From: Phanerodontia chrysosporium
Lineage: Eukaryota; Basidiomycota; Agaricomycetes; Polyporales; Phanerochaetaceae
NCBI GenBank assembly: GCA_001910725.1
Contig: MJGA01000073.1
Location: 1 to 53,962, forward strand
Reading direction: 5' to 3'
Length of the DNA stretch: 53,962 nt
Positions 1-34,256 of the stretch are shown here, one piece after another. The notes beneath the pieces were generated by a model. That model saw only the letters and a program-made list of their open reading frames with translations. It was not told the DNA's origin and did not search any database. The stretch's first letter is position 1; each line of letters starts with the position of its first letter. The position numbers and the translations under genes are program-made.

Positions 1-1
1 A

Positions 2-3139: not shown

Positions 3140-3150
3140 ACGAGTGGGAG

Positions 3151-3440
3151 TGTCAGATCTTGGGCGTTTACCGTCCTGATATGGTAGGGCGCATCAGCGC
3201 CACCAAGCCCCAGCGTTCCGCATATGGACACCTCTCTCGTAGCACTGTAGTACATGCGTCAGCACCTCGAATATATGGCCATTATGCTCACTAATATGCA
3301 GTAGAATTATTCATCATCTTGTAAAGACGATGACTGTGTATTCTGGTCCAGTAAACCCGCTTACATACAGTAGTCCTAGACATGTATATATACCGGCTCT
3401 GTAGCACCAGAATAAATAAGTTCAGAGTACATTCTTCACA
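3151..3440 (+). repeat. 3' LTR of the copia element
   Basis: A purine tract (CGAGTGGGAG, 3141-3150) directly precedes TGTCAGATC, the expected LTR start. A TATATATA box lies at about 3383-3391 and an AATAAA-type polyadenylation signal (GAATAAATAAG) near 3412. The end is at CA near 3438-3440, where the ParB-like reading frame resumes on the other strand. Length about 290 bp. Confidence 0.8.
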
Positions 3441-5465
3441 CCCAGCAGTTTCTTGTACACCTTGGTCATATTCGTGTTCGCCTCGTCGATAGTGGCTTGT
3501 GTACCTGATGCGCGCTGCTGCGCCCAGTACTCCATGCTCCTGTCGAGTTCGTCCGCTGTCGGGCAATCCTTGATAATACGCCCCATTCCGTCGAAATGTA
3601 CCCAGAGCGTTTCGACGACATTCGAGGCGATCTGGTGTCCAACACATAGTCAGTAAAGCAATCACCTCCTTCGCCTGCTGCACTCACCGCGCCGTACACG
3701 TTGAGCAAATGCGAAACCAAGTACGAAACCTTCCAGATCGGATGCTCCACGAGCGGGTTTTTGGCCTCGATGAGATGCATAAGGAGCTGCAGAGAGTGAG
3801 GGACACGAAGCAAAGCAGCCACCGGAGCTGACTTCCGCGGCGTCTCCTTCTGCTTCTTCGCCATCGCAGCCGTCGCAGTCGCAACGTCGACACCTTTCGA
3901 TGTCGACGCCGCTTTCCCTGCGCCCTTCGCCTTCGCCGCCTTGCCGCCCTTCGTCGTCTTCGCCGCGGATTTGCTCGACTGTGCCGAGGTCGCCACCTCC
4001 GCGGCCGTCTCATCAGCGACATCGACGCCCTTCGCGCCCTCGATGGCCTCGTCCGCGTTTGCAGCGGTCATCGTCCCCAAGCTTGCTTCCAGCTTGCTCT
4101 CGGCGAGCGCGGTCAACCCGTCAGCCGTGGCCTTCTTCTCGCCGTAAACGAGGCCGTCGCGCTCGATCGCAAGCAGCCCGACGATCATCTCGAGAAACTC
4201 CTCAGGTGTCTCGCCGCGCAACGTCTCGTTGAAGTTTCGCGCCATCTCGTACAACTCGTCCTGGGTCATCTTGTCTGCAATGTAATGAGTACTTCAATAT
4301 ATCGGTGTAGAAGTCCCGAGTAATGCCTTACCGCGGTCGTAGATCGCAACCAACCACCAACCGCTTGCTTTCTGGATGTCCTGCCACTTCTTCGTCTCCT
4401 GCTTCGCGGCCTCGAGAACCGCGACGGTGGCGTGGTACTCTTGAGCTTCTGGTATGTTCTCATGGTTCAAATTCCCCTTCTTCTCTTCTTCGTCGATCTT
4501 GTTCTTCAGGTGTTTCAATGTGTCTTGCAACCCGTGAATTCGTACCGCCCCTTGTATAACCCGATTGTCGACGATCTTCATGTACTGCCGCAGGGCTGCT
4601 AGACGATGCTGCCCACCGGAGACCGCGATGTACTTGACATTGTCCTTCAGCAGAGAATCTAGCGTCGGCCAGACGTCTTCGCTCGCCGTGAAAATGTCGA
4701 GGTTCTGCAGTGCCGCGTAGCTGGAACACTTGGCCAGACGCTCTGCCGCGTCCGGCTTCAGATCAGTTCCAACCTTTAGCGGCACCTTGAACATCGTGGT
4801 GCGGTCAACCCGCCGGATGCCCTCGTCCTCGTACCGACGGACGAGGTTCGTCAGCGCCTGGTTATGGACTATTCGTTTGACCCAGCGGCCAAACTCAGGA
4901 CGGACCGCGTCGTCCGCGAGCCAGTTGACACGGGCGAAGCCCATGAACGCGTCCGTGATGTTCACGCGAATTCGTGTGATGACGTGCGGGTCGAACGCGG
5001 TCTTGCTTGGCGGCAGGGTCGAAAGCTCGTCCAAAACGCTACGGAGCTCTCGCGCCTGGTAGCGATGCGATTTAGCAAGACAAGGTACGCGATTAGAGAC
5101 TTAACACGTACGTAGCGCGTGGTTGCGTCCTCATTCTCGTCAACCCATTGCTCCTCCTCTTGGCTGTCCTTGTCGACAGCCTTCCCCTTCCCTTTACGAG
5201 GAGGATCGCCTTCGACGATGCCTCCATCGGTGTCGCCTTCGTCGGCTGATACATCTTCGTCAATTACTTCGACCTCATCGTCCGCGTCGTTCGTGCGCTG
5301 AGGCTTCTTTGTGGAGCTCTCAACCGGTTTGTCGTTATCTCCTGCCTCCTGAGCCTTCTTGCGAGGTGCTCGGGTTGTTTTCTTCGGCTCCTTGCCGCTC
5401 TGGCTTTTGATATTTGCCATTGCACGCTTCAGGGCGGCAGTTGACATAGACGGAGCTTTCGGCAT
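3441..5465 (-). pseudogene. ParB/sulfiredoxin-like domain protein, copy 1, interrupted by copia
   Basis: Four exons on the minus strand: 5465-5112, 5055-4332, 4274-3688 and 3631-3441, with introns of about 56, 57 and 56 nt bounded by GTACGT..CAG, GTAAGG..CAG and GTGAGT..CAG. The first is a Lys/acidic low-complexity N-terminus (MPKAPSMST..). Exon 2 holds a conserved fold ending in YIAVSGGQHRLAALRQYMK, which resembles the signature box of the ParB/sulfiredoxin/DGQHR superfamily, then KASGWWLVAIYD. Exon 3 begins ELYEMARNF.. and runs into Ala/Lys-rich sequence. Exon 4 (ETLWVHFDGMGRIIKDCP..) is cut at 3440 by the copia LTR, so roughly 60% of the E2 homologue is missing. The start at 5465 is chosen by position relative to copy 2. 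The function is inferred only from the motif: DNA binding, nuclease or nucleotide chemistry all occur in this superfamily. Confidence 0.75.
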
Positions 5466-5757
5466 GTTTCCTGTAGATATTCTGTGAGAATAATACATGC
5501 AAAACATCTAGCACCAAACGTACCAGAGTTGTTGAAGTGATTCGAATAGATTCTGAGGCGGTGACGACAATGACGGTGGTGGAGGGACCGAGGACGAGAG
5601 GGCGATGGAGGATTGGGCACGATAGCATCGATTGATGTGGTATCCCAAACGGGTAGTTAACTAATTCACGGTAAATATTTAATTATGGATATCTCCTGAT
5701 TTGTAGTTATCGTGTGGGTGATGATGAGGATATGTATTGATCAACGCTATACTTGCG
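5466..5757. promoter_or_regulatory. putative promoter interval of ParB-like gene copy 1
   Basis: About 290 bp between the presumed start codon of copy 1 and the first palindrome of the adjacent array. No convincing TATA box was found; an AT-rich stretch lies at 5650-5710. Because the array begins directly upstream, any factor that binds the palindromes would sit in the promoter of this gene. Confidence 0.35.
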
Positions 5758-6301
5758 CCGCGAATGTCTCGATACACTCGCGGCTGGACACCACTCAAGT
5801 ATGGTTGCGCCGCGAATGCGTCGACACACTCGCGGCGGGACACCAGTCAAGTACGGTTGCGCCGCGATTGTGTCGACACACTCGCGGCGGGACACCAGTC
5901 AAATAAGGTCGCGCCGCGAATGTCTCGATACACTCGCGGCTGGACCTCACTCAAGTACCCTCCCGCCGCGAATGTCTCGATACACTCGCGGCTGGACTTC
6001 ACTCAAGTACGGCTGCGCCGCGAGTGTCTCGACACACTCGCGGCGGGACACCACTCAAGGACGGTTGCGCCGCGAGTGTCTCGACACACTCGCGGCTGGA
6101 CACCACTCAAGGACGGTTGCGCCGCGAGTGTCTCGACACACTCGCGGCGGGACACCAGTCAAATATGGTCGCGCCGCGAATGTCTCGATACACTCGCGGC
6201 TGGACCTCACTCAAGTACCCCCGCCGCGAATGTCTCGATACACTCGCGGCTGGACACCAGTCAAGTACGGTTGCGTCGTGAGTATCTCGACACACTCGCG
6301 G
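5758..6301. repeat. E1 palindrome array 1: 11 units, 52-bp period
   Basis: Imperfect 26-bp palindromes start at 5758, 5810, 5862, 5914, 5966, 6018, 6070, 6122, 6174, 6224 and 6276. The period is 52 bp except once (50). Each has left half CCGCG(A)RTGTCTC and a near-inverse right half, with TCGA at the dyad. The spacers are also about 26 bp and are themselves conserved (GGACACCACTCAAGTAC type), which excludes a CRISPR array. The array lies between ParB-like copy 1 and gene A. Confidence 0.95.
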
Positions 6302-6463
6302 CTGGCCCACACCCCACGTGGATGGTGAAATACCAGCAAGGTTAGAGCAATTTGACCTTATCTCAAAGGCCACCATAAGTCACACAAATCATTTCCATTA
6401 CTCGAGATAGACTGGATACATTTACAAGAGATTTGTACAGCAGATAACGGATATAGCAATGAG

Positions 6464-7131
6464 CTATTCATAGAAGCAGATGCACATTTCGATCTGAGAG
6501 AGCTCCTGGTGGATTGAGACCTCAAACGGGAGCGCGTAGTCACCGGACCACTCATACTTGAACTCGCCGTTGAACATCAAAAGCATCCGCAGACCATGAC
6601 TCCACACGAGGTGACGCATGGCAATTTCCCACGCAGTCTCTCCGTATTTCTGGATACACTCCGGCTGGGTTCAACAGTGAGCTCGCTGTCGCACTATGCA
6701 TCATTATCGTCCATCAACTCACCGCGAAATCGCGGAGGGCGGTCCATGCCGGGTCGCCGGAAGTCATTCCGTTGATATCCAGGTTCATCCTCAGGATTTG
6801 GCCAGCAATCGACCGCGCGCTGGTGAGTATGCGCACGAACCTGGCCCTCTTGACGTCCCGGGCATCATCGTGCTGCCGCGCGTACTCTGCGAAATCTCCC
6901 TCGAAGTTGTCCCGATCTCGTTCGTGGTACTTCTCCCCAGACAAACCATCGAAGTCCCAATATCGCTCAACCGCGTATTCTACCTCGCGGAGCATCCTCC
7001 CACGTCGATCCTGCCAAACTCTTCATCAGTACCCTCTTCACTTCAGCGAAAACCTTACTTACATGAGATGAGGCACGCTCGCCATCGTCGACCTCTTCGG
7101 TCACGGCACGAGATGGAGCGTTTGTGGACAT
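6464..7131 (-). CDS. E1 gene A: 185-aa protein of unknown function
   Basis: Three exons give an uninterrupted frame: 7131-7063, 7010-6723 and 6664-6464, separated by introns of 52 and 58 nt (GTAAGT..CAG, GTGAGT..CAG), all phase 0. The start ATG is at 7131 and the TAG stop at 6464. The product begins MSTNAPSRAVTEEVDDGE, continues with an acidic/aromatic block (ERYWDFDGLSGEKYHERDRD, NFEGDFAEYARQHDD), a basic amphipathic stretch (RARFVRILTSARSIAGQILRM) and ends HLVWSHGLRMLLMFNGEF..ICFYE. No known domain was recognised. Conservation of exon structure and protein sequence with gene B supports it as real. It lies between the two 52-bp palindrome arrays of E1, so it may be an accessory gene of the element; that is inference. 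Confidence 0.7.
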
Positions 7132-7479
7132 TATGATGAGGGGGTGGTGGTGGTGGTGGTGGTCTTTCAAGTCGCTCAGCATTTCCCTTGCACGAGATTG
7201 CTACTGATAAGAAGTTGGTCACATGTTGTATGCACCTGTTTGCAGATAGATTGACCAGCTGATGGCTGTGGAATGGACATTCCCGTCTTTGCATTTGTTT
7301 TTTTATAGTATGTTTGTGGCAGACATATGCAATTTCTGACATCCCAGATAGTACGATCTATACTATGTGACCGACACAAACATCCGTAAAACTGGTCGTG
7401 GCACAAATCTCTTCTTTAACCCATGTCTGAACCCTCTGGACGTCTGTCTGTTGTCATGTGCGTTCTGGGCCAGCCAACG

Positions 7480-7921
7480 CCGCGAGTGTCTCGACACACT
7501 CGCGGCTGGACACCACTCAAGTACCCTCCCGCCGCGAGTGTCTCGACAAACTCGCGGCTGGACACCACTCAAGTACCCTCCCGCCGCGAGTGTCTCGACA
7601 CACTCGCGGCTGGACATCACTCAAGTACCCTCCCGCCGCGAGTGTGTCGAGACACTCGCGGCTGGACCTCACTCAAGTAGGGCTGCGCCGCGAGTGTCTC
7701 GACACACTCGCGGCTGGACATCACTCAAGTACCCTCCCGCCGCGAGTGTGTCGAGACACTCGCGGCTGGACCTCACTCGAGTACGGTTGCGCCGCGAGTG
7801 TCTCGACACACTCGCGGCTGGACATCACTCAAGTACCCTCCCGCCGCGAGTGTCTCGACACACTCGCGGCTGGACATCACTCGAGTACGGTTGCGCCGCG
7901 AGTGTCTCGACACACTCGCGG
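7480..7921. repeat. E1 palindrome array 2: 9 units, exact 52-bp period
   Basis: 26-bp palindromes start at 7480, 7532, 7584, 7636, 7688, 7740, 7792, 7844 and 7896, each exactly 52 bp apart. The usual core is GTGTCTCGACACAC; units at 7636 and 7740 have the core in reverse orientation (GTGTGTCGAGACAC). The array lies just upstream of gene A's 5' region and downstream of gene B. Confidence 0.95.
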
Positions 7922-8077
7922 CTCGCCCACACCCCACAACGATGTTAGAACACATACAGTTTACCCCGCTGTCACCTTATCTCAAAGCCCACCCCCTTAT
8001 AAGTCAGACGAACAATCTTTCTTACTCCAGATAGACTGCATACAGATCGTCACTATGACAATAATGAGGAATACTAT

Positions 8078-8733
8078 TTACAAGTAGCGACATTTCTCGC
8101 GCTGCGCGAGCTCCTGATGCAATGTGAACTCAAAGTCGAAACTCTCGGACATAGTAAAATGGAAATCGCGCTGAAACGTCCTAAGCCAGTGCAGACCATG
8201 ACTCCGCACGAGGTGATACATCGCAATGTTCCAGGGACTCGGTCCGAAATGCTCCCGACAATACGTCTGGATTCGATAGTAAGCCCGCTTTCACACTATG
8301 CATCAATCTCGTTCACGAACTCACCCCGGTGTCACGGATCGTCGTCCAGGCCTCGTCACCCCGCGACATATCGTTGATATTCAGGTTCATCCTCAGGATC
8401 ATTCCAGCAATCGCCCGCGCGCTGTGGAGTATGCGCACGAACCTGGCCTTCTTGACGTCCTCAGCGTCATCGTTCTGCCGTGCGTACTCTGCGAAATCTC
8501 CCTCGAAGTTGTCCCAATTTCAATCGCGGTACCACGGCCCAGACAAACCCTCGAACTTCCAATGCTCCTCAAACACGTATTGTCGGTTGCGCACCGGGCT
8601 CCCATCTCCGTTCTGCCAAACTCTTCATCAGTACCATCTTCACCTCGGCGAAAACCTTACTTACGCCAGGTGAGGCATGCTCCCCATCCTCGACCTCTTC
8701 GGGGACGGCACGCGAATCAGTAGTGCTGGACAT
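8078..8733 (-). pseudogene. E1 gene B: paralogue of gene A with a nonsense codon
   Basis: Exons 8733-8665, 8612-8325 and 8266-8078 match gene A in order; exons 1 and 2 have identical lengths (69 and 288 nt) and the splice sites correspond. The protein begins MSSTTDSRAVPEEVEDGE and ends AQREKCRYL. A TGA at 8522-8520 interrupts exon 2 at the position where gene A has an Arg (..WYRD-stop-NWDNFEGDF..), consistent with a CGA to TGA transition. Downstream the frame is intact, and RARFVRIL/KARFVRIL and IAGxILRMNLxIN are conserved. It is probably a recently inactivated duplicate. Function unknown. Confidence 0.7.
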
Positions 8734-9074
8734 TACGAGGGTGGATGGTGGTGGTGGTCTTTCAAGTCGCCCAGCACTGCCCTGGCGCGAGATCGCTACT
8801 GATAAGAATTTGATCACATGTTGTATGCACCCGTTTGCAGATAGATTGACCAGCTGATGGCGGTGGAATGGACATTCCCGCCTTTGCATCTGTTTATTAA
8901 TATATTTGTGGCAGACATATGCATTTTCTGACATCCCAGATAGTATAATCTGTACTATTTGGCTAACCCAAAGTCGGTAAAATTTATTTGTCATGGCACA
9001 AATCCCTTCTTTAACCCCTCTTTTAACCCTCTCGACACCTATCAATTCTCATCTGCGTTCTGGGCCCCCCAACG

Positions 9075-9243
9075 CCGCGCCTGTCTCAGAACAGTCGCGG
9101 CTGACCCACGTCCATATGGGTCCATCACTCATCCTGTCAGTCCGCCGCGAGTGTCTCAGAACATTCGCGGCTGACCCATGTCCATATGGCTCCATCGCTC
9201 ATCATCACCTCAGTCCGCCGCGAGTGTCTCAGAACATTCGCGG
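9075..9243. repeat. E1 subterminal palindrome cluster (3 units)
   Basis: Three degenerate 26-bp dyads at 9075-9100, 9145-9170 and 9218-9243, of form CCGCG..TGTCTC / AGAACA..CGCGG, spaced 70 and 73 bp. The spacers share CTGACCCATGTCCATATGG-type sequence. Related dyads occur at 34013 and 34083 near the second copy of this terminus. Confidence 0.85.
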
Positions 9244-9487
9244 CGCATAGGCTGTCTCAACACTACTTCACATTCCTTACCTTCAACCCTATCAATACCT
9301 TACATATACCCTTCTTTTACCTACCCAGGACCCATATTAGACCCTGTACCCCTTCCGTAACCATAACCTACCTGCACCATACTTATATCCTAGTTGAACC
9401 CACCTTAACCCATGAATAACCCTCAACCCGTACTTAGCCCCATCCTGAACCCAACATGTACCCTAAACCGACAGCAAGAATCTAGGC
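9244..9487. other. E1 right end: C-rich strand-asymmetric terminus
   Basis: The plus strand is rich in AACCC/CCCTA motifs, finishing with CCCTAAACCGACAGCAAG and then AATCTAGGC before ATAAT at 9488-9492. The same last 90 bp occur at 34160-34251, again ending at ATAAT, which fixes this as an element boundary. The sequence to its right is an unrelated gypsy reading frame in one case and an unrelated structured segment in the other. Confidence 0.75.
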
Positions 9488-9492
9488 ATAAT

Positions 9493-12400
9493 GAACAGGT
9501 AACGCTGGTAGGGTATCAAGTGGGTTCTCTGGAAACCGCCGCTCCACACGTGCGTCTTCCGGGAATACGGCTGGTACGGGTTTAACCTTGCGATCAACGC
9601 GCTTGTAGGCTCCAAGGACCTCCGGAGTATGCATAGGCTTGTAGGCAGAGAATAGGTCTGGCCCGTCCATACACAGGATGACGTCATCTTCCGTAAGGGT
9701 TTTTAGAAATTTTTCCATAGAAATCGTAAGGAGAATGGGTTCATCAGCTTCTTCTTCAGTAGTTTCTTCTTGAATGGTGACGTAGTGTATTGCTCCTGAA
9801 AGTGTTTCATCCGTTTGCTGGGCGTGGCGCCCATCGCCAGGTACTTGGCTCGGAGATGCCCTTGACGTGACATGGGTTTCAGCGAGGGTATGATTATACT
9901 TGGAGTCGTGAGCGGAATTGAGTGTACATTCAGGGGCGACATCGGGTGCGGTAGAGAATATCATCTTGCTGGTGGGCATGGGCTCACGCATGTATGGATA
10001 TGGGGCAGACGCATTTATTGCGTGCCTAGATACATGCAAGAGTGGCCATACATAGGTGTACACTAGAAAAACAACGGCAAAAATGATTGCTATAAGTACA
10101 AAGGCCGTAAGTAGACAGAAGTACATGGAAAAGCTTTGTGGTTTTGGGGCAATCATGCCTGTAGTTATCGCGATCTCGTACTGGAGCACAGAAGAGAACT
10201 GACGTTGATACGGAGCGGGCAGTGTAGCGGCGAAATATTTTTCGGAATTTTCGCAATTTTCTGTTGTTTTTGGTAAGCCGTCGCGGACGGTACAGGCGGC
10301 TTCTGGTGTAGCGGCAGAGATGAGCATGAATAGAATAAAACGTTGAAAACCGAGAGCTCTGGGGACTTGAGAATCATGGCGCAAGTGTTGCGCCGCCGTA
10401 CGAGGTGCTGGTGTCGAATTATGCCTTGGCCGGGGGTTAATACCGTGGTTGGTGTGCAGAAGTGAGCGTACCTCTTCAGAGTCGATGATACCCGCACACG
10501 CAGAGCATGTGACGGTAGCATCCAATGTCCCCAAGGTCACCGCGCATGCGTAGGTTGCGCACGGCTGAAGCTTCGGGGGCGTCGATTCTGAAGAGCTCGA
10601 TGAACTCGCAGATTTCGCGCTGTTCAGCAGCGATCGGATCCGTGCTTTGGGCCCAGAAGTGCTTGGCTTGGCGGACCAGCAGCTGTTCTCCTGCATGAGG
10701 TATGGGGTGCCGTCGCACTCAGGGTACGGCAAGAGGCATTCGAAATCTTCAAGGTGACGAGTGGGCTCGGTGAGCTTGCGGACAAGAAAGGTGGTAATGT
10801 CGCGGGAGCGTGCGAGGCTGAGGGTGTCGCCGGCCATGGACAGGATGTGAGCGCGGGTGCAGTTGGCGACCGAGAACGTGAACATGTCGATATCAGGTGG
10901 ATTATCGGTGTCGTGCATGTGTTGCCACGTTCCGAGAGGGTGCGGCAGGTAGGCGGGCTCGGTAGGGACATGTTCGGCGGTGTGAAACGTGGTCGGATAG
11001 GACAGGAGGGTCTCATGGATGTTAATTTGCGCCGGTGGGTCAGGAAAGGGGGTGTCAGGTCGGTCTGCAGTCTGAGACGAGGATTCTGGCTCGGCGGGCG
11101 GGCGTGCAGCTTCGGGGTGTGCGTCTGGATGGGGCGTAACAGTTCGCGTGTCTTGTATGACCTCGATTTGACGAAGATCGCCCATGCGAAGCGGAGTATC
11201 GTAGGGATCGATCGAAGTCGTGCTCAAGCGCGAAGGCGCAGCAGACTCGTCGGAAGAGCCTGCAGCAGCAAGATTGAGCGTCGACATATGCTGCGAAAGA
11301 CTCACCGGCGAGAGGACAGGTGTCCTTGGGAGCTCTCGCTCCTGCTCGGACGCGGTCTCGCCTGGACGTTCGGGTTGACGCGGTGAGTACTGCGGCGGTG
11401 GTGTAGGCGTGCGCATGGCGCGACGGACGCGCTCCAGGTCCTCCATGCTCGGCGCCATGCGGGCCACGACCTCGTTGCCTGACTCGTCCCCAAGGACGAT
11501 CTCAATGGTGACTGAGACGGCAGCGGGCTCGTGTTCGGCGTGTTCGGCAAGTTCTGGTGCGAGTTCTTCTTCTTCCTCTTCATGCGCTTGCTGATACTGC
11601 GGCTGAACATGTGGGTGAGCGTCCGGTGCATCGCTGGTGGCAAGGACGGTGCCGTTGGGGTCGAGGTGGAAGTCGGGGAGGTAGGCCGGGTCGTTGATTA
11701 CAGCGGCGCTTAGCTCTCCGGATGGATGCACCAAGAACAGGACCCCGTTGATGCCTCGCACGGCTACCCAAATGCCATTGCTGTGCGACACTTGATTGTT
11801 GCACGGGCACGGCAAGAAGGGACCGCGCAGCGGAGGCAGGTCTGCTTGTTCGGCGATGGTAGGTTCTTGCCTTCCTTCTTCGGCACTGCGGGAACTGATG
11901 CGCCACGAAGTGAGCGCCAATCTCTTTAGGACTTCAGCCAGGACTGCATACCTGTCCACAACAGCGTCGCGGCCTCGAGGTGCGTAGGTTCGGCATCCGC
12001 CAATGACTAACACCTCAAGCGCACGAACCTCGATGCCCTCGACAAGGGCTCGACGGATGTCGGCGCTGATCACCTCGTTCGCGTCGCACAGGCCCCAGTG
12101 TTCAACGGGCTCGGCGGTTGCAGACGCGGGCGAGTGCTGGTGGGCAGGGGGTACAGGTATGTTGTTCTGTGCGTGGACATGTGTAGCTGACTCGTGGGGG
12201 CTAGGCATACCGCTGTCAGGCGAAGAATCGCTCCACTCGGTCGTCGTGGAAGCGGTGTCGCCATTCCAGCCATAGCTGCTGACATCGGTTGAGCTGGTGT
12301 CGCTGCTGTCCAGCCTAGGTGGTGAGTTCTGGAGTTCTGATTCGATAACATGTACGTGCATGCTGACGTCTTCAGCCTGTAGATCTTCGAAGGCCTGCGG

Positions 12401-15400: not shown

Positions 15401-18295
15401 CACATTGGGCTGTTCCAGGGCTTGGTGCGGGGTTTTTCTGGTCACAAGCCGCTCAGGCTCCTCTGAATGTGCTTGTAGGACCGACTCCGAGTGGTGCTCT
15501 GTTCGCCGACGCTTTCCGGTAGACTCGGTTATGAAATGCATAGCATTTTCACGGCGTAGAGGACGACCATGTGTTCTGGTTACGACTGGGGTGCTTCCAT
15601 CTTGGACCGTGCCAGCGTAGACCTCCAGTTGCCGAGCCACTTGTCGAGTACGTGCATCTTCCAGCTCGTTAACTTGAGGATTAACACAAGCTTGTACTGA
15701 CGCTGTAGATCGAGCAATGTATTCTGCGATTTCTGGGTCCATAGTTGGATCAGGCGTGACAAGTATTTCATAATTGACTTGTAAGGTCTTGTCCTTGAAT
15801 TGCAGGTAGGTTCCATCAATGCGTTCATCGATGCTGATGTAGTTGCCTCGTTGCCAAGGGCGTCCCAAGAGCAAGTCGAAAGGGGCCTTATTTCCAATGT
15901 ACACATTGGCGTAGGTCAATACTGACCCACACGTGAGTGGTACATCAGCGACAAAGCCACTGAGGACTCCTTCCCCTCCATTGGCATCTCCCATGAGGAT
16001 TTTCTTGGTTACGTCCATCGGTCGGCTGAGGCAGTTTAGCCATGCCTTGCGATGAGCAATGTTCAGCTGAGATCCAGTGTCGATGATGGCCAGGATGGGA
16101 ATACCATCACATTCCATGCGTAACTTGATCAGTTGTCCGCGTGTGCGGGGCATAAAGGCTGCAGCGTAAGATTGCGGATCTAGTTCACTGGCTACTGCTA
16201 GCTTGGCAGAGGCTGAAGTGCGTGACTCCACAGGTTTCAGTGACTTGGGCTTGATTACTTCTTGCACCTGGTGGCTGACTTCCTTTGATACTGCCAGTAG
16301 TTCGCCCACAGCCATTGTTACAGGGGTGTTCAGCACTTTATCCAGTACTGAACGGGGGTTTACTTGTTTCTGCAACTCTGACTGTCGTGGAAATCGCTGC
16401 TCGTTAGGCGACGTTTCCTTCATAGTTATGTCTTGAGTGGCTGACTTCTTGGCTTTGCCCTTGTCTTCTTTCTTCTTCATTGCTCCTTGAGGGTCTTCCT
16501 GAAAGGCCTGATTATCTTGCGGGTTGAACATTGGTGGGTGAACGTCAACAGGATGGGTTGTTTTAGGTTCTGACGCCTGCTTCTTGGGTATAACAGGCTC
16601 TGGAACTCTAGGCTCGAGGACATTTTCTTTGTCCTTACGCATGGACTTGCGTTGTGGAACCCATACTCCGTCAAACCTTTCCTTGCGAGCTTGCTGAGTA
16701 GACTTTTCAGATCTGATGGCAGGGTACATAACCGGTGGGCATAAATCTTCATTGTCTGAACTGTCGCATGAGGTATTATCTTCATCGTCTGAGCTATACA
16801 CATGACGGGTGGTGTAAACTTCGCGTGACGCTGAAGAGCTTGGTTCATCGGGTACTGAGATATAATGGCTGGTCGAGGCCATTATACGTTTGACAGCTGT
16901 GGCGATAGGTTCATCTAATGATTGACGGAAGATGCGAGCTCCATTGGTAAAGATGTATCGTCCACGTGCATCACTTTGGATTATGCCTTTCTTTACCAGG
17001 TCTTGAAGTGCAGGGCACTGTGTCATGGTATGTCCAGCTTCTCCGCAGCCGTAACATTTACCATTGTTTCGAGGAGGTGGAAGACCGTCTACAGATCGCG
17101 CCATGTGCGGAGGAGTGTCCCGTCCAGGGTAACGACCGGTAGGCCCTTGCTTTTCCTTCTGCTCCTTCGGGGTAGGAATAATATCACGTATAGCTGGATT
17201 ACGGGTGTAGGCCTTGAAATATGTTGCAGCGTATCGTGCATCATCAACAGACATCTTGCCTAGTTGTTCCACAAGACGGTCCAGCTCTGGGTCTTCGCTT
17301 TTCTTGGAGGACTTCCTGGAAGAATGACGAGTCGAGCGAGGTGGAGCATCTGAGTCTGAGTCAGATTCCTGCTCAAGTCCCCGATCAAAGCTGACGCGCT
17401 TGCGGCTGGAAACTCGCTTCTTCAGGCTCTTGCTATGCTTCTTTCGCGATCGTGACTCGCGTTCTTCTTCTTCAGAACTATTTGACAAGTCCGATTCACT
17501 ATCGCTGTCTGAGCTATCCTCGTTATCGCTTTCTTCATCTGAGCTAAATCGCTCAGTGTCAAAGCGATCTCGCTTGAGGATACTTTCAGCAGCCTTGTAG
17601 ACGTCTTCAATCTCGAAGGGATCTTCCAGATCATGGTTTGGCTTTTGGGCCATGATCCTGGCTTCGAGGAGGTTGCGGAGGTTATGAGGAATTCCCATCC
17701 ATAGATAGGTCTTGTAGTCTCTTTCTTGGATCTTGTTCTTCCTCATCAACCAACCCGCGATTCGTATGTACCCTCTGGTGTACCTCCACCAATGGGCAAG
17801 GTTCTTGATCTTCTTCTTTTCTGCCTTCTTGATGTATTGAGCTAGATCTGCGCGCTTAAATCTGCGCTTATCCCGCTCAGCTTCATAGTACTTGCGGAAG
17901 TCTTGTACGAACACTGTCCAGTTCTTTACTTCATAACTATGAAGTCCCTCCAAAGTCTCCTTGACTGTGCGAGAGCAATACTGGACCAGGTTCTCAATCT
18001 TCTCTGTGTCATTCGTGACATGATACTTGGTGCATAGGCGTTGATAGAAGTAAAGGAAAGGTTCCACATCTGAGTGCCTTCCTTTGAACTTCTTAGGAGC
18101 TCCCTTCGCTCCTGGTAGAGGTAGGTCGATGGCAGATAACGGCTGAGTCATGACTGTGTGAGTAGGTGCTTGAACAGGTGATGATGGTGATGGGGGTGAT
18201 GACAATGACGATGATGAGGTGGAAGTATAACTTGGGGCGATAGATGATACGTCAGATAGACTTGGTGTGCTCAAGTCTTGTGACATATACAGCAA
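9493..18295 (-). pseudogene. GypsyA giant gag-protease polyprotein, 3'-truncated
   Basis: An uninterrupted frame of about 2,934 residues from ATG at 18295. The N-terminal third is gag-like (PLPGAKGAPKKFKGRHSDVEPF.., a retrotransposon gag fold with WWRYTRGYIR) followed by a CCHC zinc knuckle, CYGCGEAGHTMTQCP, near residue 415. A retropepsin follows at about residue 735 (AIIDTGSQLNIAH; LLLGRPW). An exceptionally long, mostly disordered region then extends to about residue 2,600. Two hydrophobic segments follow, FILFMLISAATPEAAC at about 2,650 and a strong membrane segment (CLLTAFVLIAIIFAVVFLVY) at about 2,720. The frame ends in element E1 sequence (..PALPVHYA-stop), so everything from RT onward is lost. 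A complete reading frame of this size implies recent activity or selection before E1 arrived. Confidence 0.88.
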
Positions 18296-18599
18296 ATTGT
18301 GCCGCTACTGGGTTATTTCCCCCTCGCGGTGGGCTCCAGATGACGCGATCAGGGACGGATACTCTATGTGAAAGAGCGGCCGTTTGCCGAGTTTCCTGGA
18401 CCAGTCGTTAGGTCGAGAGTTCCCGGGTGTTCGTGGGGAGAAGTGTAAAGTAGCGGGATCTTGGTGGAGAGGGTGATGAATAGGATGTATATGGGCGTAG
18501 ATGAGGAAGGGGGCTGGTGAGTGTGATGATGTACCAGGACGAGTTTCCTTATGCCGGTGTATAACCTTGAACAAAGATCTAGTATTACTTCGATAGAAG

Positions 18600-19070
18600 T
18601 GTATACTAGATACAACAGGGAGGGTACAAGATAGTGTCTACAGCGTTAGACACTAGCCTGCAAATAGTCTTTTCGCTCGTGAGGCTACTAAGACCAAAGG
18701 CGTGCTTGACTTCGTAACGTGACTTGACTTTGACTTGACTTGACTTGACTTGACTTGACTTTAACTTGACGGCGTAAGCCTGTAGACGGATTCTACAAGA
18801 CTTGAATACTCACTGGATACCGGGTGTATCACAATGAGGAAGCAGACCAGGCAGGCGTAAGATGCGGGGCAAGATAGGCTTATTTTATTGCTATCTACAG
18901 CAGGGGTATTTATACTAGTCTGAAAGTATTGCAAATTCCTCTGAAAGCCTTACAAATCACGACAGATGGACTGTGTCATTGATTTGTAAGATCAGAAGTT
19001 ACGCTCTGTAATGACGACATCGTGATTGGTGATAGCGATGTCATGCTTTGTAATGACGATGTCGTGCACT
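18600..19070 (-). repeat. probable 5' LTR and leader of GypsyA
   Basis: On the minus strand there is a TATA box (TAGTATAAATACC, about 18925-18913) followed by AATAAAAT near 18890 and a leader toward the gag start at 18295. A (TTGAC)n microsatellite lies within it (18719-18770). No second LTR exists in the window to define the ends, so the limits are approximate, as is the border with E2 on the right. Confidence 0.5.
18719..18770. repeat. (TTGAC)n microsatellite
   Basis: Eight or so TTGAC pentamers in a row with occasional extra T, inside the GypsyA LTR/leader region. Confidence 0.9.
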
Positions 19071-20045
19071 TGAAATGAATAGGCCTTGCATCGTAATTGA
19101 CCAGGCTGGCCTAGGCATTTGTGTAAGAGGTTTCAGCAGGGGTTTTGCAGATGCTGTGATGCAATAGTTAGTGAAATTATGATATTCTGGAAGGGCAGAC
19201 AGCGAAATGGGGCGAGTATGAGAGGAGGAGTGGCGTGTGGGCGCTAGGATCATGCCAAATAGGGTAGTGCTGGCCATATAGAGGTATTGAGTAGGCCTGA
19301 ATAGATGTAAGAGTGCAGGGTACCGGTCTCTTCTATTCTTCGCCCTATTTCTCATGTTCTTGTGCCAAACAGGTTTGGCGCAGGACACCGGACCTCGAGA
19401 CTGGCACCTCCTCCTGTCGAAGCAGGTGTTGCAATGAGGAGGAGCTTCGCCAGCATCTGTTCAGATGGGCCCTCCACCTCGCGCAGCGCATTGAGATCGA
19501 TCGGGTCAGCCGGGTCGACGTCGTTGACGATGCGCAGGCCTGAGAGCGGAGCCGGGAACATGTTCGTGGCACCCTTGATCTTGAAATAGCCTGGGGCCAT
19601 GTTGCTCCTGTGGCCACCGTCCTCGTCCTCGTCCTCGTCTGCGTCAGAGCCGTCGAGGTGGCCCACCTTGATCTCGCGCTGGCGCTCCAGATTCTCCATG
19701 ATGACCTGAATACAATACTTCAGTTTGACTGACATTCAATAAACGTTCTACTTACTGTCCACGCTGCCTGAAGTGCCTGAATGACCGCCTTCGAGATGGT
19801 CTTCACAACGATCATGCCGGTTACAGGGTGTACAGCGTACACGCCAGAGACGGAGAGAAGGCGTCGGAAGATTACCTCGACCTTGGCGACCTCGGCGCGG
19901 ATTTCGCGATGGTAGAGGATGAGGGCCCGCAGCATCTCCAACGGCATGGGGATTTCATCCTCCGCGTCGGTGTACGCGGAGATCTCAGACCCACCGTCGC
20001 TGCTCGACGAAGCCGATGTTGCGTCCTCGTCGTTGTCGTTGTCGT

Positions 20046-20165
20046 TGTCCTCCTCATCCTCGTCGTCCTCGTCGTCCTCGTCGTCCTCGTCGTCCTCGTC
20101 GTCCTCGTCGTCCTCGTCGTCCTCGTCTTCTTCCTCGTCCTCGTCGCCTTCGTTCTCTTCCTCGT
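20046..20165 (-). repeat. acidic coding microsatellite (GAC/GAG run)
   Basis: A CTCGTC-type trinucleotide repeat in exon 6 encodes a long alternating Asp/Glu tract (DEDDEDDED..). The antisense strand reads as long Val/Leu or Ser runs that are not genes. Confidence 0.9.
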
Positions 20166-21571
20166 CTTCATCGTCGCCCTCGCCCTTCGCGCCGTCTTCG
20201 TCCTCGTTCTGGTCCTCGACGTCGCCAGAGTCGTTAGCCTTCTTCTTGCCCTTCAGGCGCGTATTCCGTGCAGCTCTCGCGGCTGCTCGCTCACGCCGTG
20301 CGCGCAAGGCAGCCTCGCGCTTCTTCTCGATGGATTCTGCCGACCGCGCGCCGTCCGGCCAGATGAACATCCGGACGGACTTCGTGGTGGCGACGAGGGC
20401 AGGCTGGGAGTAAGGGTCGAGCGCGACCTCGATCGAAGCGCGAAGCTGCAGCATGTGCTCATCATCCATGATTTTCGGGAGCACCACTTTGCTGTGCGTG
20501 CTCTCGAAAATCATGGCGAGGAACAACGTGCTGATCTGCTCGTTCATGCTGTTCCCAGTGAACGCAGGCCAAAGGTAGTGGGACCGCAGTGTCCATCGGC
20601 CTGCGTCCGACCGACTTGACGTGACAGCCTGGTGGCGTACGCTCCACTTCTTCTCGGGGTCCTTGATCCAAAGCTTCACGATGTTCTGGAGAGCTTCGCG
20701 CTCGGTGTTGTACGATGTCAGGGCCTCGAGGAGGTCGAAGGTGTCGGAGTTCAGCCAGTCCTGGTAAGGCGCGATGTCGACGAAGGTCATCGCAGACTCG
20801 ACAGTCTGGACGCTAGGCTCGGTGGTGGTGGTGGGGGGGACGTAGGCGGCGTTGTCGGAAGCTTCCTCTGCGGTCGCTTTGCTGGCCTTGCCCTTGCCTT
20901 TGCCTTTGCCCTTGGCCGTCGTGGTGGCGGTGTCCGCTGCTTTGCCCTTACCCTTGCCCTTGCCCTTGCCGCCCTTTGCTGTCTCTGCTTTCGCGCTCTG
21001 CTGGACGACGGCAGTACGGCCACTTCGCGGCAACTTGTTGAGCTGCTCGTTCAGGCTCGTGAGCGTACGGTTATTCGTGCGGTTGGTGCGGCGGGCGTTG
21101 TAATCGGTGCGCGCTGTGTCAATATCCTGGACGTTGCTGTTGAACCAGGCATCTGACAGGACTGCGCCCTGTTCTGCCTTGGCGAGGAGGCGAGGCGGGA
21201 CAAGGGTCTTGATCTTGTCCTCGATGAAGTAGATAGTTCGCGGGCCCTCGTTGTACAGCGTCCACATCAGCTGTATCGAGGCGTAAGTACAATGTATGCA
21301 CGACGGATAGTCCTAGCCATGACATGACACACCGCTTCCACTGCCTTGTCGACATGTTTAGGGACGATATTTGAGTTGGGGTTGCGAAAGGCGGTGATGA
21401 CGCCCTCGGAGAAGTCGCGTGCGATGTACGGGGAGAAGTTCTTCGTGATGATGTACGGTATCGAGCGGTCAAAGAAGGGGAGAATCTGCAAAGACGATTG
21501 TGTCAGTTGATCACTCTACAACTGAAAAAACGAGCTCTAAAGGGGACCGTGCATATAAATCGACCAAGTCA

Positions 21572-21898
21572 CCGCGCGTGTTTCGAAACACGCGCGGGAA
21601 ACCACGCTCATTCACGCCTTCGCTGGCTCAAATGACAAGCAAGAAGCCTGAGGTCGAAAACGGAGTGGTCATCCGCGCGTGTTTCGAAACACGCGCGGGG
21701 AACCACCCACATATTGCCCTCGTGGGCTCGAACGACAAGGTTGAAGCCTTGGGTCTAAAACGGAGTGGTCATCCGCGCGTGTTTCGAAACACGCGCGGGG
21801 AACCACCCCATCCTCGCCTTCGTGGGCTCGAACGACATGAAGGAAGTCTTGGGTCTAAAATGGCGTACTCATCCGCGCGTGTTTCGAAACACGCGCGG
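21572..21898. repeat. E2 intronic palindrome array (4 units, about 100-bp period)
   Basis: Perfect 26-bp palindromes at 21572-21597, 21673-21698, 21773-21798 and 21873-21898. The left half is CCGCGCGTGTTTC and the right half is its exact inverse. The repeat unit is about 100 bp, including conserved spacer (GGAACCACCC.., CGTGGGCTCGAACGACA, CTTGGGTCTAAAA). All four lie in intron 4 of ParB-like copy 2 (21945-21486). Confidence 0.95.
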
Positions 21899-24435
21899 GG
21901 AATCGCACCCAAACTCTATACGAAGAAAGATAACGCCGTACTCACCTCAGATAAGGCGTCCTTGCAAAACTCCAAGCGACGGAACGTGTCCATGACGAAC
22001 GTGAGGCTGGGAAGCGGCATCGGCCCAAAGTTCTCGTGGCATTGCTGCCCAGAGAGCACAAAGACGACGGCTTTCGCCTCGACCTGCGCCCAGAGATCCT
22101 TCGAGTGCTGCGACGCACTGTCGTCCGCCTTCACGCTCTCGCACTTCGCAGAGACGAGCTCGCGCAGCTTTGTCAGGTACATCTCCAGCGCATGCTGGAC
22201 GAGGGCCTGATCGTCGTTGTTGCGCAGAGTCTTGTTCGTCAGCAACAACGCGACGTCCGCCAGCTCGACGCGCTTCTTGTCGGTCTTGAAAGCATGCATG
22301 TACGCCTCGTCCGCCAAGGCCATGATGTCAGGGAGTATTTCATAGGAAGGGCGTTCTGTCTTGTTCCCCAGCATGAGCTTGTATATTCCTCGCCAGCTTT
22401 TCCTCGACTGCGCGACCACTTCAGGGACTTCCGAAGCACCCTACTGGGTCCAGTTGCCGATGCTGTTGTCCAGAGTGCTGATGTCGGGGCAGTCCTTGAT
22501 GACCCGCCCCATCGCATCGAAATGCACCCAGAGCGTCCCCACAATCGTCGACGCAAGCTGCGTTCCAAAGAAATCAGCAACGCCCCATGCACGTCAAGCC
22601 AAGCCTCGCACGTGCGAGCGAACTTACCGCTCCGTACACGTCTAGCAAATGCTTCTGCAACAAGTTCACCTTCCAGATCGCGTGCTTCGCCAGCCCGTCC
22701 TTCGCATGTGCGATGCGAACCAACAGGCTGAGCGAATGCACCGAGCGAAGCAGCGCAGTCACCGCCGCCGATTTTCGCGGCTGACCCAGTTGCTGCTTCG
22801 CGACCTCGGCCATGGCTGTCGCAGCGTCGACAATCTGAGTCGTGTCCTTCTTCGCGCCCTTCGCAGCCTTGCTGGCCTTCGCAGCCTTCGCTGCAGTCTT
22901 CGCAGCCTGAGCAGCTGCCTTTGCGGCCGCCTTCGTCTGCTTCGTCGAGGTCTCGGGCGCAGATGCGTCCTCGTTCGCGCCACCCGCATTCGCGTCTGCC
23001 TCCTCGGCGTCCATGCGGAGTTTCTCAGCTTCCGCCGGAGGCGCGTTCGCGTCCTTCATTGAAGTCGCCGTCGTTACCAGATTCTTCACCGCGATACTCA
23101 CCAATTTGCTCGCGTCGTTCTTCTGCTCGCCATAGACGAGCTTGTCCAGTTCGATGCCGAGGAGCCCCAGAATCATCTCCAGAAACTCCTCAGGAGTCTC
23201 TCCGCGCACCATCTCCCGGAAGTTCCTCGCCATCTCGTAGAGATCGTCCGAGGTCAGCTTGTCTGTCAAGTCGTAACTCGCCCGTCAGCTTCGTTAATAG
23301 CATCTACCAGTAATTCGCCACTCACCATAGTCGTAAATCGCGACGAGCCACCATCCGCTCGCCTTCTGAATCTGCGCCCACTTCCGCGTCTGCACAGTCA
23401 CCCTCTCCAAGTCGTCGAGCACGACCTTGTATTCACGAGCGTACGGGAGGGTGCTGGTATCCTGCGGGCCGTCGAGTTTCTCCTTCTCGACCAGCGGCTT
23501 CAGCCGCTCGGCCTCCGCGCGCAACGCATGAATCTGAGCCGCGCCTTGAACGAGCCGGACGTTCAGAATCTTCATGTACTCCCGAAGCGCGGCGAGACGA
23601 TGCTGTCCACCAGAGACAGCAACGTACTTCGTGCCGTCCTTCACCAGCGAGTCCAGCGTAGGCCAGTCTTCTTCCGACGCCTTGACGATGTCGAGCTTCT
23701 GCAGTGCTGCGAAGCTCGCGCACCGCTGGAGTCGCTCGACCGCGTCCGGTTTGAGGTCCGTCGCCGGACTCAGCGGGATCTTGAACATCGTCTCCAAGTT
23801 GACGCGTCGAATCTCTTCCTCGTCGAACTTCCTCACCAGGTTCGAGACACCGACTCTGTGAACCAAACGCCTGACCCACATGCCGAACTCGGCACGGACT
23901 GACTCAGGTGCGATCCAGTTAACGCGAGCGTATCCGAGGAACGCCGCGTGAATGTTCACCCGCATCTTCACAATGACGTGCGGGTCGACGATGTTCTTGT
24001 CCTCGGGGAGCTTGGATAGCTCGTTCATGACCTCCATGAGCTCCTTCGACTGAATACGATCTATATTTAATATACCTCGCTGCTTTAGTTCAATGTAGCA
24101 CGTACGTATTGTTCCTCGGGAGTGAGGACTTCGTCTACCCAAACATCCTCGTCCGTTGCCTTCTCCTTCCCCTTTCCCTTTGAGGCCTGCTCTGCATCCT
24201 CCTCTCCTTCGCTCTTCTCGCTCTCCTCGCTCAGAACAGCAATCTCTGGGTCCGCAGCGTCCGCCTGCGCAGTGTGCTGGCTCCCAGACGCCTTAGCATT
24301 CGCATCCGAGGACTTTGCAGTCCCCTGTTTGGCAAGCGAAGTGAGCAGCGCCTTGGGATCACTGGCAGGGTTGGCCTTGGCCAGCTTGATCGCCTTTTTC
24401 AAAACAGAGCTTTTAGCTGACTGTTTGGGGGCCAT

Positions 24436-24704
24436 TTCTAAGCAAACTAACACCACAGTGAGTAACTTAGTAGTAAGATCAATTTGCACTGCACTCACAA
24501 ACAGTATATTTAGGGTCTGCTGGTGTGTTGGTGAAGGTAGAGAGCGAGAGGCGACATCGACGAGGGAGCCTTGATCCATCGATCGATGGCATATGTCCCG
24601 TTTTGGATGTATCAATTGATGAGAATATAATATTAATAATTTGTATGCCCAGATATGGGGCTTGTCGGACATCCAAATCGGATCATATCAAACAAGGCGC
24701 CCAT
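24436..24704. promoter_or_regulatory. putative promoter interval of ParB-like copy 2
   Basis: About 270 bp between the start codon and the first upstream palindrome. It includes an AT-rich block (24615-24645). No clear TATA box was identified. Position and size resemble the equivalent interval in E1 (5466-5757). Confidence 0.35.
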
Positions 24705-25016
24705 CCGCGCGTGTTTCGAAACACGCGCGGATGGATGCATGAAAACGGACATGTCCATCCGTGCGTGTTTCGAAACACGCGCGGTGATGGACCGATGTCA
24801 GAACCTCTCCGTGCGTGTTTCGAAACACGCACGGATGGACATGTCCATTTTCATGCATCCATCCGCGCGTGTTTCGAAACACGCGCGGATCGAGATGACG
24901 TGTAGCGTAGTGTCCTTTTCAAGACCGTGGACCTCTTTGTACCCTCTTTGTACCCTCTACCAACCAACACCACAGGATACGCTGTACTCTCCGCGCGTGT
25001 TTCGAAACACGCGCGG
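24705..25016. repeat. E2 upstream palindrome array (5 units)
   Basis: 26-bp palindromes start at 24705, 24759, 24809, 24863 and 24991. Units 1, 4 and 5 are the perfect CCGCGCGTGTTTC dyad. Unit 2 has CCGTGCG on its left arm and unit 3 is a perfect CCGTGCGTGTTTC dyad. Units 1-2 and 3-4 with their spacers are mirror copies of each other (24705-24784 against 24809-24888). Confidence 0.95.
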
Positions 25017-25079
25017 GGAGGTCATGTATATTTAACACTATCCAAACCCCTTATACCTTCCGCGAACTCTTGGAGCCTT

Positions 25080-25560
25080 ACCTGGACCCTATCCATACCC
25101 TCTTGTTACCCTGCTGGTATCCTCTTGTACCCTCTTGTTACCTTTCTAGTACCCCCTTGTACCCTCTTGTTACCCTTCTAGTACCCCCCTTGTACCCTCT
25201 TGTTACCCTTCTAGTACCCCCTTGTACCCTCTTGTTACCCTTCTAGTACCCCCTTGTACCCTCTTGTTACCCTTCTAGTACCCCCTTGTACCCTCTTGTT
25301 ACCCTTCTAGTACCCCCTTGTACCCTCTTGTTACCCTTCTAGTACCCCCTTGTACCCTCTTGTTACCCTTCTAGTACCCCCTTGAACCTTACCTATACCT
25401 TCCTTGTACCCCTTTGTACCTTACCTATACCTTACTTGTACTCTTCATGTACCCTTATTGTACCCTTATTGTACCCTTATTGTACCTTACTTGTACCTCC
25501 TATGTACCTTGCCCTGGGTTCACCCTTGATTCTTGGGTACCCCCAAATTGTACCCCTTTC
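25080..25560. repeat. C-rich minisatellite, about 32-bp unit
   Basis: A core of about eight near-identical 32-33-bp units lies at about 25125-25390 (TTGTACCCTCTTG, TTACCCTTCTAGTACCCCC), flanked by degenerate TTGTACC(C/T) repeats to about 25560. All C-runs are on the plus strand. It occupies the place of the C-rich end in E1 and probably belongs to the E2 terminus. Confidence 0.9.
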
Positions 25561-25665
25561 CCGCGCCAGTTCCAGTTATGTACCCCCAAAACCCCACTAC
25601 CAAAAAGTGGTCCAACCTATAACCCACCTAGAACCCTGAACCCACAGTCGATTTTCCCATATAAT

Positions 25666-26283
25666 ACTGGTTTTTTACTGGTACCTTAGGGCTTAGGTCA
25701 CCCTCCAGGCTTTGACTTTTATTTGTGCGAAATAACGAGGGGTATCCCCGACACATTCCAACCTATGTTAAATTATGGAACGTGGAAATCCATGAATTGG
25801 GATCGGTTATGTATGCTGCAAGCATGAGATCGAACATGTAAAACGTGAGTGAATCTCCGATCGCTGCTCGAGCAGCGATCGGGGCTGATGGGTATGCTAC
25901 CTTCCTCCGCTGCCTTCAATTGTCGGTGGTTCCCCGATCGCTGCTCGAACAGCAATCGGGTGGTCCTATCAATCCCATCAGCTGTCGCCACCCGATCGCT
26001 GTTTGAGCAGTGATCGGATGATAACCCCAGTTCTACTCAGTGTTACCTGCCATAACTGGACCGTTTCCGATCGCTGCTCGAGCAGCCATCGGAGATTCAG
26101 TCACGTTTTACATGTTCGATCTCATGCTTGCAGCATACATAACCGATCCCAATTCATGGATTTCCACGTTCCATAATTTAACATAGGTTGGAATGTGTCG
26201 GGGATACCCCTCGTTATTTCGCACAAATAAAAGTCAAAGCCTGGAGGGTGACCTAAGCCCTAAGGTACCAGTAAAAAACCAGT
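25666..26283. mobile_element. foldback element, 618 bp, with 217-bp terminal inverted repeats
   Basis: Terminal inverted repeats 25666-25882 and 26067-26283 are almost identical and begin ACTGGTTTTTTACTGGTACC. The element is flanked on both sides by ATAAT (25661-25665 and 26284-26288) in direct orientation, a 5-bp target duplication or shared site. The inner ends of the repeats and the 184-bp loop carry four 26-bp palindromes. It has no coding potential of its own. Near-identity of the arms indicates recent insertion. The last 28 bp of its right end recur at 34635-34662. Confidence 0.88.
25857..26092. repeat. foldback palindromes (4 units)
   Basis: 26-bp dyads at 25857-25882 (perfect; half-site CCGATCGCTGCTC), 25934-25959, 25992-26017 and 26067-26092 (one to three mismatches each). 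They have the same length as the E1 and E2 palindromes and, in units 1, 2 and 4, TCGA at the centre. Confidence 0.92.
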
Positions 26284-26288
26284 ATAAT

Positions 26289-34251: not shown

Positions 34252-34256
34252 ATAAT

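Follow-up and report, generated by a model that had tools for sequence, protein, structure and literature searches.

Contig MJGA01000073.1 of the basidiomycete Phanerodontia chrysosporium, 53,962 bases analysed in full (the window; contig C117 in our numbering), carries two related elements, E1 and E2. Each comprises a giant gene reading leftward, arrays of 26-bp palindromes and a C-rich tail with a fixed right end. A search of the genome (39.0 Mb in 145 contigs) with exon 2 of the E2 gene gave 23 giant-gene matches, which we assigned to three families, A, B and C, by their identity to E2. Each family has its own type of palindrome; the pairing of gene and palindrome is real and likely selected. 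As far as sequence can tell, the elements of all three families are probably mobile and added to broken or eroded chromosome ends at the dinucleotide AT, and each giant protein probably binds its own palindromes. In the window, their parts are these:

3442 to 5465, minus strand: E1, a giant gene of family B, truncated; exons 5465-5112, 5055-4332, 4274-3688 and 3631-3442.
5758 to 6301, unstranded: family B palindrome array 1, 11 sites spaced about 52 bp apart.
7480 to 7921, unstranded: family B palindrome array 2, 9 sites.
9073 to 9492, plus strand: family B tail, with three degenerate palindromes, a C-rich tract and a fixed end in CTAGGCATAAT; the same tail lies at C116:32383-32800 and C63:358983-359399.
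19352 to 24435, minus strand: E2, a giant gene of family A; spliced exons 24435-24106, 24049-23326, 23262-22628, 22557-21946, 21485-21333, 21270-19756 and 19705-19352; in-frame TAG at 22441-22443.
21572 to 21898, unstranded: family A palindromes, 4 perfect sites within a 460-nucleotide intron (21945-21486).
24705 to 25016, unstranded: family A palindromes upstream of E2, 5 sites.
25040 to 25665, plus strand: family A tail, with a C-rich tract, 32-bp repeats and a fixed end in CCCATATAAT; common to C63, C85 and C116.
25666 to 26288, unstranded: an inverted repeat of family C tails that contains C palindromes at 25857, 25934 and 26067 and has a fixed end in AAAAACCAGTATAAT.
33831 to 34256, plus strand: second family B tail fragment, whose host is the Penelope-like 3' fragment on its right.
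34257 to 34642, plus strand: 3'-end fragment of a Penelope-like element, with a hammerhead-like core near 34520, ending in CCCCCCAAACCCTAA.
34643 to 34667, plus strand: the last 25 nucleotides of a family C tail, joined to the Penelope-like 3' end.

The original prediction, made from the window alone, saw two homologous leftward genes, and this is confirmed. The E1 and E2 products, spliced by hand, share 300 of 635 aligned positions; exon 2 measures 724 nucleotides in both, and the splice sites correspond. Family A, to which E2 belongs, has 5 genomic matches at 93-100% identity to E2; family B, that of E1, has 6 at 56-58%; and family C has 12 at 34-41%. Copies inside one family are near-identical. 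Among the 1,440 codons predicted for E2 is an in-frame TAG at 22441-22443, a place where the frame stays open on C63, C85 and C93. A 42-nucleotide intron assumed in E2 was rejected, as other copies read through it. The left boundaries once proposed as element ends now read as truncations by long terminal repeat (LTR) elements, at 3441 and about 19385. The E1 gene is cut off at 3441, which we read as the end of a Copia-type LTR; the B copies on C21, C73 and C82 match the window from 3441 onward, not before, and their genes continue beyond that point. We read the left edge of E2 as the start of another LTR element; here too other copies continue, and neither edge is an element end.

The palindromes divide as the genes do. 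They read CCGCGCGTGTTTCGAAACACGCGCGG for family A, CCGCGAGTGTSTCGASACACTCGCGG for B and CCGATCGCTGCTCGAGCAGCGATCGG for C. All three share a central TCGA; A and B are alike at 22 of 26 positions, A and C, like B and C, at 14. Across the genome there are 68 A sites (at most two mismatches), 132 B sites and 477 C sites (at most three mismatches for both), with none for any of the reversed-pattern controls. Element-specific palindromes had been predicted, and with counts so far above chance they may be taken as established. Palindromes of the gene's own family lie at all 23 giant-gene loci, exclusively so at 22, and at none of the shuffled loci; the sole foreign-type site, at locus L008, is part of a neighbouring C tail. 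The information content of the half-sites is 1.55-1.87 bits per base, that of the 15 bases flanking them 0.17-0.57 (57, 84 and 96 distinct sites, chosen with at most six mismatches). In C sites positions 1-4, 8-9 and 12-13 are nearly fixed and position 7 mostly so, with 5, 6, 10 and 11 variable, a pattern that looks like the footprint of a protein.

The same positions within the element are occupied by different palindromes in different families. Arrays are found upstream of the giant gene (gene 1), inside an intron of gene 1 (in A, C and one B copy) and between gene 1 and a second gene, gene 2, that follows it in A and C. The array intron interrupts gene 1 at one equivalent point in A and C (E2 residues 754/757; tblastn), and homologous introns hold A sites in E2, C sites on C116 and B sites on C82, where three sites lie just beyond the equivalent splice site. 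An intron of gene 2 also contains arrays, judged by eye, both in A (C116 1698-2059) and in C (C116 15432-15669). In the best-preserved A copy, on C116, the arrays are centred near 1.87, 5.08, 8.46 and 11.6 kb, at a spacing of 3.2-3.4 kb. Recognition of its own palindromes by each protein is supported because genes and site types co-diverge: all 23 loci have own-type sites, and the types differ at homologous places. Could the palindromes be autoregulatory or insulator sites only, unrelated to mobility? They do lie upstream of genes and in introns, as such sites might, but regular tiling over gene 1, gene 2 and the space between them would exceed the needs of promoter control, and we think this explanation very improbable.

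The second constant feature is the tail end. The B end occurs at 26 places in the genome, all 26 exact over a 17-nucleotide pattern; the A end at 8 places, 6 exact; and the C end at 27 places, 24 exact. Thus 56 of 61 sites are exact. The C-rich tails of E1 and E2 and their right ends at ATAAT are as predicted. Both right ends had been placed inside different gypsy elements. For E1 this holds in that its end (9492) adjoins the open reading frame (ORF) of an LTR element, but the E2 end (25665) adjoins an inverted pair of C-family tails (25666-26288), itself next to gypsy-like coding sequence. Within the A tail, at 25040-25560, the 32-bp repeats correspond to about three 10.7-bp steps and are possibly helically phased.

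What do the tails join? We read 20 junctions with exact or near-exact ends (6 A, 9 B, 5 C), and the flank is different in each. BLAST found an uninterrupted copy of the host sequence for 16 of them, the exceptions being C116:12659, C117:26288, C121:46441 and C63:358986. The closest copies read AT exactly at the junction in 15 of these 16, although the host copies are weak for three of the 15 (C63:391929, 393838 and 394817) and the host at C117:25665 is itself the end of an element; AT would be expected at about 1 in 16 junctions if there were no preference.

A simple insertion with two ends would leave the other half of the host beyond the element. We sought this remainder distally on the same contig at nine junctions. 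At six (C116:12244, C116:32800, C117:34256, C63:368013, C63:376175 and C85:112786) no co-oriented distal match was found, short low-complexity ones aside, and in none of the nine did we see the two termini and target duplication of a two-ended DNA transposon. The C module at 25661-26290, though flanked by ATAAT, is an inverted pair of tails and not a two-ended element. On this search we rejected simple two-ended insertion. The proposal that the element is mobile, and that its protein recognises the palindromes it carries, survives in part: co-divergence of gene families and site types speaks for it, but two-ended insertion with a target duplication is not supported, the elements having one fixed end and lying at chromosome ends. 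Genomic copies lacking neighbouring palindromes or a common end point would have told against it; the copies share both, with palindromes at all 23 loci and one fixed end.

An AT target and one precise end recall the Helitrons, which insert at A^T and have the terminal consensus TC...CTRR. A one-ended rolling-circle insertion of this kind, with one precise end and the other ragged, into ordinary subtelomeric sequence would account for the host AT at 15 of 16 junctions, and the 17 Helitron_like_N matches in the genome could supply the enzyme in trans. None of the 17 (on C66, C73, C124 and others) lies at a mapped element, however; no Rep or helicase family was found in the scanned A and C parts, and the ends do not match the Helitron termini. 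The absence of an accepted host remainder at the nine junctions, the stacks of tails described below and the confinement of gene copies to contig ends also argue against such an insertion, which we regard as unlikely.

The location of the elements, like the third palindrome type at 25857-26092, the two tandem small genes beside and between the B arrays and the further tails at 34256 and 34667, formed no part of the original prediction. None of the 23 giant-gene matches is more than 76 kb from a contig end, and the nearer end is the one toward which 20 of the 23 read. On short contigs nearness to an end carries little meaning, but all nine copies on contigs longer than 400 kb also lie within 76 kb of one. 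Telomere repeats, (TTTAGGG)n, close the same end as the giant genes on C55, C60, C63 and C64, and the distance of family C gene 1 from the contig end is 14,179 bases on C44, 14,769 on C55 and 14,694 on C64. This plant-type repeat is present on C21, C51, C55, C57, C60, C63, C64 and C121, with an interstitial array on C21.

The elements are also stacked and cut. C63 is read to its telomere. There a C element breaks off at 368014, where an A tail takes over, and this A element in turn breaks off at 376175, where a B tail begins; the rest of neither cut element is found distally up to the telomere. Three tails are stacked on C116 (A at 12244, C at 12518 and 12659) and three B tails on C121 (46441, 46891 and 47485, the last 2.9 kb from the telomere). 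In the stack in the window, a Penelope-like 3' end stands between a C tail cut to 25 nucleotides and a B tail. About 20 telomere-type repeats on C21 have a C element on their distal side, and the joint falls some 45 nucleotides inside the tail of that element.

Such an arrangement might arise if A, B and C were simply an ordinary subtelomeric gene family spread by break-induced replication or ectopic exchange, with the repeats as by-products. In its favour, C63 and C85 share 20.5 kb at 99.4% identity. Yet 61 common tail ends, differing flanks at 20 junctions, the host AT and the cognate palindromes call for an element-specific process, and there is little probability in this explanation. The shared block (C63:402415-422943 and C85:121949-142482) holds an ORF for a helicase C-terminus and lies beside a truncated A element on C85; a related stretch lies beside a truncated B element on C79.

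A further element is interleaved with A, B and C. The last 6 kb of C63 contain a 1,270-codon ORF matching RVT_1 (1.6e-6; 28.4 bits, just under the Pfam cut-off of 29.6), which we take from its motifs to be an endonuclease-deficient Penelope-like reverse transcriptase (RT) of the Coprina kind. Its places are:

L036:1340-5149 (C63:437340-441149): Penelope-like RT gene at the telomere.
C21:4696, window 34257-34642 and C85:111900: further 3'-end or gene places.

The stretch 34257-34642 had been considered a family C fragment, an assignment we rejected when it proved to be a Penelope-like 3' end. With the RT as query there are 12 genomic matches, each on a contig that also bears element genes, tails or a telomere array, and none on C116. 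The RT lies on the strand opposite to the giant genes on C21, C55, C63, C77 and C82; C44 has genes on both strands. At all five 3' ends examined, a pattern scan found a hammerhead-like core (so named from its motif) 123 nucleotides before CGCGCCCCCCAAACCCTAA, and it found this core at no A, B or C tail. Rfam at gathering score reported nothing on the window, L036, L048 or L049. At a lax setting it gave microRNA models only, far below their cut-offs and on the fold-back palindrome arrays, which we judged an artefact; the hammerhead-like core was not reported.

The Penelope-like 3' end carries C-strand telomere repeats. The five 3' ends are joined to five different hosts, including a B gene interrupted within an exon (C21:4696) and a truncated C tail (C117:34642). 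Conversely, the B tail at C117:34256 is joined inside the Penelope-like 3' region, and the A tail at C85:112786 lies beside the Penelope-like stop codon. These mutual junctions imply that, at chromosome ends, A, B, C and the Penelope-like element have been superimposed on each other. The Penelope-like RT could serve A, B and C in trans.

What does the giant protein do? The ratio of nonsynonymous to synonymous substitution (dN/dS) in exon 2 is 0.14-0.24 in four pairs within family A, 0.23 between E1 and E2, and 0.30 between the C113 copy and the diverged copy on C44. A further pair with few changes, C113 and C44:905177, gives about 0.3 (4.5 and 4.5 changes). Ratios of 0.14-0.30 in six pairs suggest that the protein is likely retained by selection. 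Its relatives are another matter. Using E2 residues 105-640 and a nine-sequence alignment of exon 2, we found no homologue at an E-value of 0.01 among about 8,000 scored candidates per query, and scans of viral and prokaryote contigs found no homologue of the gene. The ParB/sulfiredoxin fold that had been predicted may be present, but our searches lend it no support. No ParB-type family matched in Pfam or NCBIfam at E-values up to 10, a negative limited by the HMMER filters, which discard most matches above 0.1, and no PHROGs family named ParB was hit; no helicase match was seen in the protein. Sequence searches of the PDB returned nothing relevant, only coiled-coil, SH3 and similar chance matches. 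We also judged to be chance a match to NCBIfam G3PDH_Arch (19 bits, where the cut-off is 780; E 0.00037) and one to an unnamed PHROGs family (0.001, for one member). AlphaFold models were poor (pLDDT 42 and pTM 0.35, from an alignment of only two sequences; pLDDT 38 for a second model).

Gene 2 is 37% identical between A and C. It has 9 matches in the genome, and all 7 of C type lie 7.4-7.5 kb from a gene-1 match. Its relatives are two unnamed proteins, 78% and 33% identical, labelled PF26608; it has no match in the Pfam library we used, of which PF26608 is not part. None of the 23 ORFs of at least 250 codons in C116:1-31543, which spans A and C parts, has a Pfam match at an E-value of 0.01 (one long ORF was scanned as two pieces, and one is cut by the edge of the locus). 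The original prediction recognised no transposase, and that holds for these A and C parts on C116, and for these only.

A gene beside arrays of specific sites along its own replicon is what bacterial ParB-parS systems present, and the placement of the arrays recalls the loading sites of a partition protein. One may imagine a linear replicon outside the chromosomes, equipped with telomere-like ends and with partition of the ParB/parS kind, that is captured at chromosome ends. The C-rich, telomere-like tails, the lack of an RT or transposase in the scanned parts, and a gene 2 and small gene without a family in the Pfam library used would all suit such a replicon. But no free form is known, only one terminus is visible, and 56 exact ends in 61 are more regular than plain end-joining would yield. 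Unlike the bacterial systems, moreover, these elements have no recognised ParA-like gene, their sites are 26 bp long in arrays about every 3 kb, and no profile or structural homology is evident. We hold a captured replicon to be improbable.

The element reads best as a chromosome-end element added at AT ends. How might it work? The giant protein may load at the regularly spaced palindromes and from there cover or mark the element, in the way of ParB at parS. Addition would proceed by copying that starts at the 3' end of the C-rich strand and uses a broken host 3' end in AT as its primer, with the RT of the interleaved Penelope-like element probably acting in trans. Distal truncation would then reflect erosion of the end before the next addition. 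More specifically, and only tentatively, we propose a new class of selfish chromosome-end element without a transposase or RT of its own. In each family the giant, site-specific protein would load on that family's 26-bp palindromes, placed every 3 kb or so in introns and between genes, coat the element as ParB coats a plasmid and deliver a copy to broken ends terminating in AT.

Several observations count against addition at chromosome ends and self-recognition. The giant genes, like gene 2, run toward the telomere and are antisense to the strand with the fixed 3' end, unlike telomeric retroelements, and there is no RT within the A or C parts examined. The likeness to ParB rests on a nine-residue motif. 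The reversed control of the A-tail pattern occurs once. At C117:9492 the host does not show the AT, its sole relative being 74% identical, and some more diverged host copies have no AT where the junction would be by extrapolation: one of 73% identity for C63:368013 and two of 82-83% for C116:12518. Three of the nine junctions searched have a co-oriented distal match, which we judged not to be the host remainder. That at C116:12518 arises by construction, because the new element there is itself a C tail, though a tandem duplication of 141 bp would give the same picture. C116:31543 has a paralogue of 74% identity at a distance of 1.5 kb and an inverted half at 2.2 kb, and at C117:34667 a distal gypsy stretch is only 69% identical, against 92-95% for the host half. 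Three copies are exceptions to the orientation toward the nearer end, namely C21:2671, on a 25.7-kb contig, and two on C44. At C44:860000-898000 the elements are inverted relative to the contig end, by inversion or misassembly. Subtelomeric exchange, as of the block shared by C63 and C85, could have replaced distal flanks. Because members of one family scarcely differ, the case for co-divergence draws on three lineages and one diverged C copy. The B copy on C73 has no intron sites in the roughly 170 nucleotides examined, and the C21 copy is cut before the intron. Choosing sites with up to six mismatches favours the core over the flanks in the information profile, and E1 and the C73 copy differ by three nonsynonymous and no synonymous changes.

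Telomere-attached elements are known mainly as carriers of RT. In Drosophila, HeT-A, TART and TAHRE are added to broken ends and have a fixed proximal terminus and eroded distal ends. A, B and C appear to resemble them in all three respects, but gag and RT were not found in the parts examined, the gene orientation is reversed and this genome has telomerase-type repeats. Terminons, built on Athena endonuclease-deficient Penelope-like elements, are giant, multi-ORF elements at bdelloid telomeres, with a C-rich proximal end, distal truncation and head-to-tail or interspersed arrays (PMC6431247). Our elements share these features with them, as well as a chromosome-end location and a fixed proximal end. 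They differ in having no Penelope-like RT inside the unit (A and C parts on C116) and no 3'-terminal hammerhead at the A, B or C tails. In a terminon one would expect genes in the sense of the end-attached RNA, whereas 20 of our 23 giant genes read toward the end; joining at a host AT and cognate palindrome arrays set our elements further apart. The interleaved Penelope-like element, by contrast, does fit the terminon 3' end. Because A, B and C lack defining features of terminons and of HeT-A in the parts examined, we do not file them as members of either, though they appear to work alike.

Among fungi, the telomeric retrotransposons MoTeR and FoTeR lie at chromosome ends in consistent orientation, as do our elements; they encode RT and a restriction-like endonuclease, and FoTeR has its 5' end toward the terminus, whereas the genes here read toward the terminus (PMC12857005). 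The subtelomeric RecQ helicase families of fungi are likewise multi-copy subtelomeric genes, unlike a giant protein with no helicase match, palindromes and fixed tails (PMC7473861). Searches of an open-access library gave no published description of A, B or C, which does not establish their absence from print. If our reading is true, they would represent a new mode for selfish DNA to live at telomeres: a eukaryotic element with partition-like self-recognition, and AT as a sequence rule for end addition. Three co-diverged families of genes and palindromes in one genome amount to a natural specificity-swap experiment, and the fixed end marks junctions to the base.

The remaining features of the window adjoin these elements:

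1 to 3441, plus strand: Copia-type LTR element that truncates the 3' part of the E1 gene (RVT_2 at 6.7e-76 and rve in the ORF at 2-2653; LTR end inferred).
6460 to 7131, minus strand: small gene 1, about 200 codons, without a family (from reading frames; no Pfam match).
8060 to 8733, minus strand: small gene 2, a tandem copy that has diverged and contains an in-frame stop (from reading frames).
9493 to 19384, minus strand: LTR element with a 2,940-codon ORF containing DUF4100; its LTR starts within E2's A element, and the ORF is cut at the joint with the B tail.

The short introns and the DUF4100-bearing, gypsy and Copia LTR elements point to a basidiomycete. In one frame at 31090-33174, an LTR-element ORF combines an integrase, a chromodomain and a C-terminal dUTPase. 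The small gene of the B arrays recurs on C116 and C63 at about 93% DNA identity, there between C-type arrays. The modules around it, window 6321-9041 and C116:28226-32482, are about 93% identical between B and C elements and flanked by different palindrome types, as if the palindrome arrays had been exchanged along with the element.

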